Of a stretch of DNA of 51,804 nt, positions 3,683-28,328 are shown piece by piece (the stretch's first letter is position 1; the number at the start of each line of letters is the position of its first letter). This DNA is from Oscillospiraceae bacterium (lineage in GTDB: Bacteria; Bacillota; Clostridia; Oscillospirales; Acutalibacteraceae). Made by a program: the position numbers and the translations under genes. The notes below the pieces were generated by a model. It saw only the letters and a list, made by a program, of their open reading frames with translations. It had not been told where the DNA came from and searched no databases. Where the stretch lies: positions 1-51,804 of the forward strand of contig SVPV01000015.1 of NCBI GenBank assembly GCA_015065725.1, given 5' to 3'.

Positions 3683-3850
3683 GTGTTGATCATATTCTAC
3701 GCCCACCCTGCCGTAGCGTGCTTAAGATAACCTGCAAAAAAGCAGGTGGGTGTCTGCCGTACAGCTTCGAGCTCCCTTCTTCCGAACTCGGCACCGCCGC
3801 GGGAGGTCTGCATACCCACTGTACGAGCTGTGACCCCAAGAAATAGGTTG
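3653..3850 (-). ncRNA. Structured non-coding RNA, class uncertain (raiA-like candidate)
   Basis: A GC-rich, non-coding block of about 200 nt ends in an intrinsic terminator. Read on the minus strand, in order: CGTACAG, then TGGGT, then CTCCC paired with GGGAG around a small GCCGAGUUCGG hairpin, then CTGTACG, then ACCCACCTGC, an internal CCTGC/GCAGG hairpin, and GCAGGGTGGG. CGTACAG pairs with CTGTACG. TGGGT can pair with ACCCA across that helix (pseudoknot), and ACCCACCTGC can alternatively pair with GCAGGGTGGG. The size, pseudoknot and gut-Clostridia setting fit the raiA motif; 6S RNA is an alternative but lacks such pseudoknots. A cis-acting leader of the symporter is also possible. The family name is a guess; the structured RNA itself is well supported by the pairing and terminator. 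Confidence 0.55.
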
Positions 3851-3887
3851 TAGGGTTATAAAAGTCACAATTCGCGAACAGGGCAGG

Positions 3888-3925
3888 ACAATTAACAGTT
3901 AATAGTTAATAGTTAATAGTGAAAA
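3888..3925. repeat. Short tandem repeat TTAATAG
   Basis: Three to four consecutive copies of the heptamer TTAATAG (AACAG-TTAATAG-TTAATAG-TTAATAG-TG) lie between the structured RNA and the DUF1292 gene. No function is visible. Confidence 0.6.
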
Positions 3926-15617: not shown

Positions 15618-15815
15618 AAGTGATATGCTGACTAAAGTCAGCGTGATATTTTCGCTTTGCGAAAGTGATATGAAACCTATAGGCTTCGTGATATTCTATT
15701 CGCCATAAACTGTCCGTAGGACAATATCACTATGCGTAGCATAATATCACTGCGAAGCAATATCACTCGCCGTAGGCGAATAGAGTTGCGTGATACTCTA
15801 TTAAGAGTATCACGC
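15618..15815. repeat. Array of small variable palindromes with constant GTGATAT / ATATCAC linkers
   Basis: GTGATAT occurs at 15620, 15643, 15665 and 15688 (steps of 23, 22, 23 bp), then the reverse complement ATATCAC at 15724, 15744 and 15760. Between linkers lie different short palindromes: GCTGAC/GTCAGC, TTTCGC/GCGAAA, CCTATAGG, TGTCC/GGACA, TATGC/GCATA, TGC/GCA and TCGCC/GGCGA, many with a GTAG loop. The array ends in GCGTGATACTC/GAGTATCACGC (15788-15815). It has no coding potential. A related array lies at 25540-25687. Confidence 0.8.
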
Positions 15816-25431: not shown

Positions 25432-25508
25432 CCGCCCGTGGCGTAGCTGGATAACGCAGCAGATTCCGATTCTGAAGAACGGGGGTTCAAATCCTCTCGG
25501 GCGGGCCA
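25432..25508 (+). tRNA. tRNA-Arg (anticodon CCG)
   Basis: 77 nt including encoded CCA. Acceptor stem CCGCCCG (25432-25438) pairs perfectly with CGGGCGG (25498-25504), discriminator G. The D stem is GCGT/ACGC, the anticodon loop TTCCGAT with CAGA/TCTG stem, and the T loop TTCAAAT. The anticodon CCG reads CGG arginine codons. A strong terminator follows at once. Confidence 0.95.
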
Positions 25509-25687: not shown

Positions 25688-25981
25688 AAAACTGTACCAG
25701 TTCAAACCCATAACCCAAAAATTTAAAAAGCATCAAATTCATACTACCTTTCCAAACACACATCGTATTTTGCCAATCATAATTGTCAATTTTTAAGAAA
25801 ATTGTTGGTTTTTGTTTTAAAACAACCTTGTATTTTTTAAAATTGCAACTTCTGGTTGCAAAAAAATATAGCCGAAGTTGCTTGATTTATTTGTATTTAT
25901 TTGTTATTATTATATTATACGTTGTTTTGGAATAATAATTTATAGGCAATCTTTTTTAAAATTTAAAAGTCAGGTGATTTT
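25688..25981 (+). promoter_or_regulatory. AT-rich promoter region of the HTH-GlmM gene with palindromes
   Basis: No gene is seen. It contains a perfect 14-bp palindrome TTGTTTTAAAACAA (25812-25825), an inverted repeat TTGCAA-7nt-TTGCAA (25843-25861) and a promoter candidate TTGTAT (25891-25896), 16 bp, TATTAT (25913-25918). The palindromes are candidate operators for the XRE domain encoded just downstream (inference). Confidence 0.5.
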
Positions 25982-27604
25982 ATGACCATTGGTGAGAAAA
26001 TAGCCAAGCTTAGAACAACGGCTGGCATCTCTCAAGAACAGCTTGCCGAAAGACTTTCGGTTTCAAGGCAGTCGGTTTCAAAATGGGAAATGGACCAAGC
26101 ATTACCGCAAACCGACAAAATTTTACAGATTTGTGATTTATTTCAAATCTCTGCCGACGAGCTTTTACGAGATAAAGTAAATCTTCCAAGGAGTGTGACG
26201 GGCGTATCCCACGGCAACAAATATTTTGGTACCGACGGTTTTAGAGGAGAAGCAAATGTAAATCTTACCTCTATGCACGCCTATAAAGTGGGTAGATTTT
26301 TAGGTTGGTACTATTCGTCGTCGCTTTCGGGCTGTACAGTTGCAGGCTACAGACCTAAAATTGTAATAGGTAAAGATACAAGACGTTCAAGCTATATGCT
26401 TGAATACTCGCTTGTGGCAGGTATTACTGCTTCGGGTGCAGATGCTTATATGCTTCACGTTACCACTACACCAAGCGTTTCTTATGTTGCACGTCAGGAT
26501 GAATTTGACTGCGGAATTATGATAACCGCATCACACAATCCTTTTTATGATAACGGAATTAAGGTTATAAACCGCTACGGCGAAAAACTAGATGACGCCA
26601 CCACTGCTTTAATTGAGGCATATATCGACGGTGACTTAAAGGCTTTAGGTGTACTGAGCGAGGATTTACCGCTTGCAACAGGCGATAAAATAGGTCTTAT
26701 TGTTGACTATGTTTCGGGCAGAAACAGATATCTTGGATATTTGATTTCTTTGGCATCTAATTCCTATAAGAATTTGAAAATCGGTCTTGACTGTGCTAAC
26801 GGTGCTTCTTGGATGATAGCTAAATCTGTTTTCAGTGCCTTGGGTGCCCAAACCGTAATTATCGGTGCCGAACCTGACGGTGTTAACGTAAATCAGGACT
26901 GCGGTTCAACGCACATAGAAAAGCTTTGCCGTTTGGTTCGTGACCAGCATTTAGATGTTGGTTTTGCCTTTGACGGTGATGCAGACAGATGTCTTGCGGT
27001 TGATGAAAATGGCAACGTGGTTGACGGCGATAAAATAATGTATATTTTAGGTAAACGCTTAATGTCCAAGGGTATGCTTAACGACAATACCGTTGTAGCA
27101 ACCGTAATGTCTAACAGCGGATTTGTTGCAAGCCTCAAAGAAGCGGGTATGAAGTGTGCCCAAACTACCGTTGGCGACCGCTTTGTTTATGAATGTATGC
27201 AAAACAACGACTATAGCTTAGGCGGTGAGCAGTCGGGCCATATTATTCTCAAAAAATATGCCACTACGGGCGACGGATTGCTTACTGCAATTATGCTTGC
27301 CGAAGAAATTTGTGACCGCAAATCCTCCCTTGCAAAACTTGCTGAGCCTGTTATGCTTTATCCGCAGTATACCAAGAATATACGGGTAAAAAATAAGGCA
27401 GAGGTGCTTGCCGATAGCGACGTTTTAAAGGCGTTAGAAGACGTTGAAAAGCTTATTGACGGTAAGGGCAGAGCACTTTTACGTCAAAGCGGAACCGAGC
27501 CTGTGATACGCGTTATGATAGAAAGCGAAACACAGGAAAAGTGTGAGGAATTTGCACAGCTTATTGCTGATAAAATAATAGAAAAAGGCTACAAAGCCGA
27601 TTAA
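25982..27604 (+). CDS. XRE helix-turn-helix / phosphoglucosamine mutase (GlmM-like) fusion
   Basis: One uninterrupted 540-residue frame joins two families. Residues about 5-62 are a classic XRE/Cro HTH (IGEKIAKLRTTAGISQEQLAERLSVSRQSVSKWE...). From residue 79 a complete alpha-D-phosphohexomutase follows: KYFGTDGFRGEAN, the phosphoserine loop GIMITASHNPFYDNGIK (Ser about 184), the metal loop FAFDGDADR, sugar loop GGEQSGH and phosphate-binding RQSGTEPVIRV. The motifs fit GlmM (GlcN-6-P to GlcN-1-P, UDP-GlcNAc synthesis) better than other mutases. GlmM alone is about 450 residues, so the HTH is additional. AGGTGATTTT precedes the ATG. An internal AAGGAG (26188-26193) sits 1 nt before an in-frame GTG, too close for normal initiation, and may be a relic of a separate gene start. 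nagB follows after 13 bp. It may sense amino-sugar phosphates and regulate transcription (inference). Confidence 0.9.
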   Translation: MTIGEKIAKLRTTAGISQEQLAERLSVSRQSVSKWEMDQALPQTDKILQICDLFQISADELLRDKVNLPRSVTGVSHGNKYFGTDGFRGEANVNLTSMHAYKVGRFLGWYYSSSLSGCTVAGYRPKIVIGKDTRRSSYMLEYSLVAGITASGADAYMLHVTTTPSVSYVARQDEFDCGIMITASHNPFYDNGIKVINRYGEKLDDATTALIEAYIDGDLKALGVLSEDLPLATGDKIGLIVDYVSGRNRYLGYLISLASNSYKNLKIGLDCANGASWMIAKSVFSALGAQTVIIGAEPDGVNVNQDCGSTHIEKLCRLVRDQHLDVGFAFDGDADRCLAVDENGNVVDGDKIMYILGKRLMSKGMLNDNTVVATVMSNSGFVASLKEAGMKCAQTTVGDRFVYECMQNNDYSLGGEQSGHIILKKYATTGDGLLTAIMLAEEICDRKSSLAKLAEPVMLYPQYTKNIRVKNKAEVLADSDVLKALEDVEKLIDGKGRALLRQSGTEPVIRVMIESETQEKCEEFAQLIADKIIEKGYKAD

Positions 27605-27617
27605 GGAGAAATATATT

Positions 27618-28328
27618 ATGAATTTAATTACCGTAAAAACCTATGAAGAATTAAGCCGTAAGGCAGGCAAGCTTATAGCATCTCAGGTGCTTTTAAAACC
27701 CAATTGCGTGTTAGGTCTTGCAACAGGCTCTTCGCCTATTGGCACCTATAAGTATTTGATTGAAGAATGCAAAAACGGCGACCTTGATTTTAGTAAAGTT
27801 ACTACCGTTAATCTTGACGAGTATATCGGACTTGACGGCACAAACGACCAAAGCTACCGTTATTTTATGAACACAAATCTTTTTGAGCATATTAATGTTC
27901 CAATGGAGAATACAAATGTTCCTAATGGCTGTGCTGAGGATATGCAAAAAGAGTGTGCCCGCTATGATGCTTTGATAGAAGATTTAGGCGGAATTGATTT
28001 ACAGCTTTTAGGTATCGGACTTGACGGTCATATCGGCTTTAATGAGCCTTGCGAGTTTTTTGTCAAGGGTACAAACGTTGTTGAGCTTGACCCCTCTACT
28101 ATTGAGGCTAATGCACGCTTCTTTGCTTCTGCTGACGAGGTGCCGAAAAGTGCAATAACAATGGGTATGCAGGCTATTATGCAGGCAAAGAACGTTTTGC
28201 TTATAGCAAACGGCCCTGCAAAGCGTGAAATTGTAGAAAAAGCATTTAAGGGACCGATTACACCATTAGTTCCTGCTTCTATTCTTCAGCTTCATCCATC
28301 TCTTACAGTAATTTATAGCGAAAACTAA
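27618..28328 (+). CDS. nagB: Glucosamine-6-phosphate deaminase
   Basis: Converts GlcN-6-P to fructose-6-P and ammonia. The 236-residue protein has the NagB signature: LGLATGSSPIGTYKYLIEE, VNLDEYIGLDGTNDQSYRYFMN (catalytic Asp in the LDEY element), LLGIGLDGHIGFNEP (catalytic His loop) and the C-terminal region with ANGPAKREIVEKA. It is slightly shorter than the E. coli enzyme (266) and lacks the allosteric C-terminus, as in Bacillus-type NagB. It is co-transcribed with the HTH-GlmM gene (13-bp gap, AAGGAGAAATATATT ribosome binding site), so two enzymes drawing on the same metabolite share one mRNA. Confidence 0.95.
   Translation: MNLITVKTYEELSRKAGKLIASQVLLKPNCVLGLATGSSPIGTYKYLIEECKNGDLDFSKVTTVNLDEYIGLDGTNDQSYRYFMNTNLFEHINVPMENTNVPNGCAEDMQKECARYDALIEDLGGIDLQLLGIGLDGHIGFNEPCEFFVKGTNVVELDPSTIEANARFFASADEVPKSAITMGMQAIMQAKNVLLIANGPAKREIVEKAFKGPITPLVPASILQLHPSLTVIYSEN

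Follow-up and report, generated by a model that had tools for sequence, protein, structure and literature searches.

Within a stretch of 51,804 nucleotides from an Oscillospiraceae bacterium (assembly GCA_015065725.1, contig SVPV01000015.1, positions 1 to 51,804; the whole stretch is called the window below) a single open frame of 540 codons, running from the ATG at 25982 to the stop at 27604, joins a complete XRE helix-turn-helix (HTH) domain, a disordered linker and a complete phosphoglucosamine mutase, GlmM, in one polypeptide. Our sequence analysis indicates that this fusion very probably regulates its own production through a palindrome upstream of its start codon, O1; autoregulation is well supported, and we place high confidence in both binding and autoregulation at this predicted operator. 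We also consider it probable that the protein, as the only GlmM found in its genome and with its XRE domain on a flexible linker, represses its own hexosamine operon via O1 and a neighbouring half-site, O2. The fusion protein, which is probably dimeric, would bind O1 and O2 and repress the operon, and the level of GlmM, possibly together with its ligand-bound state, would set transcription of the hexosamine genes.

The predicted operator and the fusion protein

The pattern of O1, GCAAC-N5-GTTGC, is present without mismatch upstream of 46 of 61 distinct fused genes and with at most one mismatch upstream of 50, while shuffled upstream regions gave 0.0 and 0.42 respectively and none of 41 unfused genes carried it even when one mismatch was allowed. 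These counts are of distinct upstream regions of at least 150 bp, which left out the fused rows L044 (contig edge), L076 (111 bp upstream) and the duplicates L005, L008, L010, L011 and L002 as well as the unfused rows L020 and L086 (under 150 bp upstream), and the shuffles for both O1 and O2 were first-order Markov resamplings. In most fused loci the palindrome sits 91-142 bp before the start codon. An independent set of fused loci not used for discovery carried it in all eight cases, 96 to 123 bp before the start codon; a ninth fused locus, L180, was excluded from this set as it had been seen earlier. When other palindrome spacings were tried (gaps of 0-15) the next best, gap 14, reached 8 of 61 at up to one mismatch, against 50 of 61 for gap 5. 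The earlier note on this DNA had proposed a cognate operator at the promoter of the fusion gene, which is supported by the exact site in the window and by its distribution between fused and unfused loci, and had named two candidate palindromes: the one at 25843-25861 contains the conserved O1, but the one at 25812-25825 is unconserved, being exact in only 2 of the 61 upstream regions (the window and L022), and was rejected as an operator.

O2 matches a half-site, [GC]TTGNT[TA]G, found in 37 of the 46 loci with an exact O1 (shuffles mean 0.1) at 26-37 bp downstream of the O1 start, most commonly at 32 bp. A consensus scan predicts a promoter whose -35 and -10 hexamers have 9 of 12 consensus matches, a 17 bp spacer and a TG ahead of the -10. 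A second palindrome, GTAAA-N6-TTTAC, was observed upstream of fused glmM (for example L007, L035, L050 and L070) in 24 of 61 fused regions at up to one mismatch (shuffles 3.4, unfused 0 of 41) and in Clostridia, L007 and L050 for instance, its distance upstream of O1 is about 75 bp; within one mismatch no copy was found in the window. The features in question are collected in Table 1.

Table 1. Positions of the fusion gene's parts, its predicted control sites and nagB within the window
Feature	Position	Strand	Remarks
O1, predicted operator palindrome GCAAC-TTCTG-GTTGC	25845..25859	.	consensus GCAACY-N3-RGTTGC; conserved upstream of fused loci
O2, conserved half-site GTTGCTTG	25877..25884	+	starts 32 bp after O1 start; overlaps predicted -35
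Predicted -35 hexamer TTGATT	25882..25887	+	consensus scan, prediction only
Predicted -10 hexamer TATTAT	25905..25910	+	consensus scan, prediction only
XRE/Cro-cI HTH domain, amino acids (aa) 1-64	25982..26173	+	HTH_3 1e-12; five helices in AlphaFold2 model
Recognition helix RQSVSKWE	aa 29-36 of fusion protein
Variable linker, aa 65-79	26174..26218	+	aa 70-78 with predicted local distance difference test (pLDDT) under 50; dN/dS about 0.9
Phosphoglucosamine mutase GlmM, aa 80-540	26219..27601	+	intact catalytic loops
nagB, glucosamine-6-phosphate (GlcN-6-P) deaminase/isomerase	27618..28328	+	13 bp downstream of fusion; TIGR00502 274.9 bits, cut-off 236.9

Both halves of the protein are complete, as had first been read from the sequence. 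Pfam places HTH_3 (PF01381) at aa 7-61 with 48.3 bits against a cut-off of 23 (1e-12), with helices at 3-14, 18-25, 29-36, 44-54 and 58-62 in the AlphaFold2 model. All four PGM/PMM domains are matched and the NCBIfam glmM model TIGR01455 gives 494.3 bits, its cut-off being 447.55. The mutase motifs TASHNP (S184), DGDADR (D331/D333/D335), GGEQSGH (E416/S418/H420) and RxSGTEP (S503-P507), which we take to be the catalytic serine, metal loop, sugar loop and phosphate loop, are intact and invariant across an alignment of 51 sequences that includes three ordinary GlmM. A search for a second GlmM, proposed as a check in the earlier note, found none in the genome (97.6% complete), where the other phosphohexomutase (G000:C14, a PF02878 match) is 25% identical and, at 94 bits, far under the glmM cut-off. 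The fusion is thus the sole GlmM found and is predicted to convert GlcN-6-P to GlcN-1-P.

Residues R29, Q30, S33, W35 and E36 of the recognition helix are invariant in 62 of 62 fused proteins, and the degenerate HTH in relatives that had been named as evidence against a regulatory role was not seen in these. For the HTH and the mutase the median ratios of nonsynonymous to synonymous substitution (dN/dS) were 0.14 and 0.15 respectively (20 of the 23 pairs being used for medians, the pairs not being independent), and the summed ratio for the linker was 0.93, indicating that purifying selection acts on the HTH as it does on the mutase and leaves the linker nearly free.

Across 60 related genomes we counted 40 exact sites of the pattern GCAACYNNNRGTTGC, spread over 31 genomes; 13 of these sites precede fused glmM. 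Fourteen of the remaining 27 sit 66-114 bp before stand-alone genes with the same HTH type (13 assigned by hidden Markov model; L132 was read by eye and its frame also matched to HTH), which ties the palindrome to this type of HTH. The other 13 comprise seven in open frames, one each in a terminator-like repeat, between genes and before glmS in G028, and three in G039 (L167-L169), which lie in an apparent dispersed repeat and not in promoters. The G028 site (L114 1501-1515; G028:C21:27457-27471) is an exact palindrome about 80 bp before glmS, adjoining a TTGACA-like -35, in a genome where we detected no GlmM; the protein acting at this site in trans could be a fused GlmM encoded on a missing contig, or else a different XRE protein. 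A further locus (L118 1587-3014, G011:C18) has the same HTH type fused to an ADP-ribosylglycohydrolase domain with the palindrome 86 bp upstream, a second XRE-enzyme fusion of this family.

In the genome that carries the window (1.46 Mb) O1 is the only exact match to GCAAC-N5-GTTGC, and all eight sites with one mismatch lie inside open frames of at least 90 aa. Allowing up to two mismatches gave 105 sites, counted in total and not inspected singly, against 70 for a reversed control pattern. The only other HTH found there with the fusion HTH as query is 40% identical. With one exact site and all one-mismatch sites inside frames we rejected a large regulon in this genome, and the further targets beyond its own operon that had been suggested for the fusion are not visible.

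Distribution and history of the fusion

The same architecture, which the earlier note had proposed to look for in relatives, was found in 52 of the 80 best loci of one scan of bacterial and archaeal genomes (L033-L083 and L099; L044 is truncated at a contig edge, and further matches exist), in 15 of 60 related genomes and, spread over five families, in 10 of 245 genomes drawn evenly from the class, the own genome being included in both of the latter counts. The fused loci come from records named Clostridia, Oscillospiraceae, Lachnospiraceae, Erysipelotrichaceae, Bacillales and Acholeplasmatales, among others. This recurrence rules out an assembly or sequencing error and a chance fusion. Fourteen of the 15 fusion genomes show no strong GlmM match besides the fused gene; in the exception, G025, contig C61 holds a fused gene and an unfused relative about 20 kb apart (L160 and L161), the unfused one being 78% identical to the window mutase.

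A tree of 106 mutase domains requires three changes of the fused label, and the best reading is one gain followed by two losses, with a single origin most likely among the sampled genes. The tree was made by a quick method and has an outgroup on a long branch, it leaves 33 of 103 inner branches open, and the duplicates L002, L005, L008, L010 and L011 were left out of it and of the downstream-gene counts below. The inferred losses of the HTH are in the lineage of L017-L021 and L024 and in L015 (genome 72% complete), and the operator is absent in both (six loci with enough upstream sequence). In the simplest history glmM would have captured the promoter, operator and HTH of a regulator together. 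GlmM of this branch, 51-60% identical, also occurs in three phage-collection records from human faeces (MT837920.1, MT839473.1 and MT838045.1, each named Bacteriophage sp.), perhaps as bacterial DNA in viral preparations.

Sensing, amino-sugar supply and the direction of control

Direct gating of DNA binding by a metabolite is possible, though we would put it at somewhat less than even. Homeostasis without sensing, in which the HTH limits the amount of GlmM through the protein's own concentration and the catalytic state is irrelevant, stands close to an even chance: the linker is disordered and unconserved so that no conserved coupling surface is evident in it, but a flexible linker would equally let ligand-dependent changes be felt. 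None of our results counts against this simpler reading.

In the window the operon consists of HTH-glmM and nagB, the 13 bp between them being as first described; in many relatives a GlcN-1-P acetyltransferase-like gene stands between the two. Of the 63 distinct fused loci, 28 have nagB no more than 900 bp downstream, and two more end too early to tell; this count combines two methods, the gene caller having missed nagB in L043, L048 and L049, and the Fisher p of 3e-4 from the downstream-gene comparison ignores relatedness. Directly after the fusion in 50 of 63 distinct loci is a gene of about 224 aa encoding a left-handed beta-helix, probably a GlcN-1-P acetyltransferase since its best matches are the acetyltransferase portion of archaeal GlmU (142 bits for this portion of TIGR03992, whose whole-model cut-off is 292) and a dual sugar-1-phosphate nucleotidylyltransferase (5z09, 2ggo). 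This gene is not beside the fusion in the window; a relative at 43% is found elsewhere in the genome (G000:C18), near which the relaxed operator pattern gave no site except one match inside a gene. As the unfused L026 and L027, of the same broad branch, also have the acetyltransferase-like gene and nagB, this gene order is possibly older than the fusion.

No glmS over cut-off was found in the own genome, by a search that as a control found it in 14 of 14 genomes, and no GlmU over cut-off, found in 9 of 14 control genomes. Among the 15 fusion genomes 12 had no glmS over cut-off, and the same holds for 8 of the 9 with a completeness of 90% or more; the absence rests partly on incomplete genomes, as completeness is 79-87% in four of the 12. 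G002, G005 and G024 have glmS, and nagB is over cut-off in all 15. In the same genus, glmS was not found in seven genomes with a closely related unfused gene and was found in all nine whose best match is an ordinary GlmM (40-44% identical). In three loci (L016, L022 and L075) glmS directly follows the fusion in place of nagB.

On this evidence from gene content we think it fairly likely that NagB works here in the synthetic direction: it would aminate fructose-6-P with ammonia to GlcN-6-P, feeding GlmM. Because no glmS was found NagB probably supplies GlcN-6-P to GlmM and does not compete for it, and the earlier view of the two enzymes as rivals for one GlcN-6-P pool is unlikely to hold. Two points tell against a synthetic NagB. 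The enzyme is classically catabolic, and G005, one of the genomes in which glmS directly follows the fusion, also has nagB, some 3 kb past glmS and on its strand, so that the two genes are not strictly exclusive. The converse, that NagB is a catabolic deaminase, that GlcN-6-P comes from scavenged amino sugars and that the operon balances hexosamine between wall and glycolysis, would suit a known deaminase and gut hosts that supply N-acetylglucosamine (GlcNAc), but we consider it unlikely in view of the 12 fusion genomes without glmS and of the fact that either glmS or nagB follows the fusion in different loci. We found no bacterial paper on an aminating NagB in the open-licence literature, most subscription papers lying outside that search; animal GNPDAs can reverse direction according to the available part of a review. 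More tentatively, the fusion may be a trigger enzyme that closes the feedback of a GlmS-free pathway to UDP-GlcNAc, with NagB reversed, a separate acetyltransferase acting after GlmM in most relatives, and loading or phosphorylation of the essential mutase gating its own DNA binding. In that case a single polypeptide would both sense and set the supply of amino sugars to the cell wall.

With regard to the direction of control, repression seems the probable mode rather than activation. Five of 12 upstream regions of the Bacilli group (L066-L069 and L079) have the exact palindrome at a repressor-like distance of 28-33 bp ahead of the ATG, which is hard to reconcile with activation, and this together with the overlap of O2 and the predicted -35 favours repression. 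Positive autoregulation, by which the HTH at O1 and O2 would recruit RNA polymerase and GlmM would activate its own operon like lambda cI, appears improbable; the arrangement resembles cI at OR2/OR1 in that the end of O2 falls on the predicted -35, with O1 about 22 bp ahead of it, but the Bacilli positions speak against it and an essential enzyme driven solely by itself would be a risky circuit.

Several observations nonetheless weigh against autorepression at O1. L066-L069 are close relatives, so the shift of the site in Bacilli represents few events, and L079 also has a one-mismatch site at -114. The predicted promoter implies a start from which O1 and O2 lie at about -65 and -43. Lambda cI binds its own promoter with a similar geometry, and the fusion may accordingly be a positive autoregulator in Clostridia. 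In the window, O2 has a degenerate left arm. Eleven of the 61 fused loci have no site at up to one mismatch (L047, L057, L063, L065, L070, L099, L023, L073, L078, L080 and L081), six of them in the Bacilli group, and in these the site may have diverged or regulation been lost. Finally, the recognition helix of stand-alone XRE genes is much the same as that of the fusion, which makes conservation of the helix alone weak evidence. That the HTH is a mere passenger from a fused neighbouring regulator gene with its DNA binding lost is very unlikely, since common as XRE domains of this type are in these genomes, and although the palindrome is missing from some fused loci, purifying selection acts on the HTH, the operator marks fused and not unfused genes (also in the independent set), and HTH and operator are jointly absent in two derived lineages.

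Other features of the window include a tRNA-Arg (CCG) at 25432-25508, between galE and the fusion gene; next come a terminator-like hairpin and then, by eye, short repeated units to about 25690. Matches to 6S RNA (3696-3892) and Gut-1 RNA (15719-15788), both on the minus strand, exceed their gathering scores.

Relation to known systems

The fusion shares the whole mutase, catalytic loops and fold with GlmM of B. subtilis (7ojr/7olh) and S. aureus (6gyz), in a fold search whose rows cover the mutase part, and its mutase lies on a branch apart from ordinary clostridial GlmM, to which it is about 40-45% identical. With stand-alone XRE regulators of the SRQ[SA]VSKWE type it has in common the HTH and the palindrome GCAACY-N3-RGTTGC, which lies at a comparable distance from the start codon (66-114 bp in these, 91-142 bp in most fused loci), but they carry a C-terminal membrane or other domain where the fusion has GlmM. 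NagC and Mlc are ROK repressors of amino-sugar genes in which a DNA-binding domain is joined to a sugar-binding fold; the likeness extends to amino-sugar metabolism, but the folds are unrelated and NagC is not a pathway enzyme. Trigger enzymes such as PutA, NadR and BirA are active metabolic enzymes with their own DNA-binding domain that controls pathway genes. The fusion resembles them by sequence as an enzyme with a DNA-binding domain; the enzyme, the DNA-binding domain and the pathway are different. To our knowledge, few enzymes also act as regulators of their own genes. The earlier note knew of no described example of the fusion, and likewise we found no description of an HTH-GlmM fusion or of GlmM as a trigger enzyme, nor anything on this protein in work on trigger enzymes or on the operator, in the open-licence literature, most subscription papers being outside that search.

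A second role of GlmM, inhibition of the cyclic di-AMP cyclase CdaA/DacA, is described in the available parts of two papers (PMC8573169, PMC6368335). A parallel in architecture is BzdR, an XRE domain fused to a shikimate-kinase-like domain that controls a set of pathway genes (PMC3602430), and which likewise has an XRE helix-turn-helix, a linker and an enzyme-derived C-terminal domain. According to the part of that paper available to us the enzyme domain of BzdR is inactive and binds benzoyl-CoA, and its authors built an active fusion artificially. In the protein described here the C-terminal part is instead a phosphohexomutase with intact motifs and the only GlmM found, so that we do not class it with the BzdR type; it resembles the artificial active-fusion stage (Q1) of those authors (PMC3602430). 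According to the authors of the BzdR work, the capture of a DNA-binding domain by an enzyme as an origin of regulators has had few direct experimental tests, artificial fusions being their own approach (PMC3602430). The HTH-GlmM fusion is a widespread natural example in which the enzyme, one of a cell-wall step, is intact, and its history of gain, retention and two losses is traceable. These loci also point to UDP-GlcNAc being made by a GlmS-free route in gut Clostridia, which bears on wall synthesis and on predictions that rely on GlmS. An enzyme that regulates its own genes is of a known kind, while the HTH-GlmM instance, its operator and the GlmS-free setting appear to be new.

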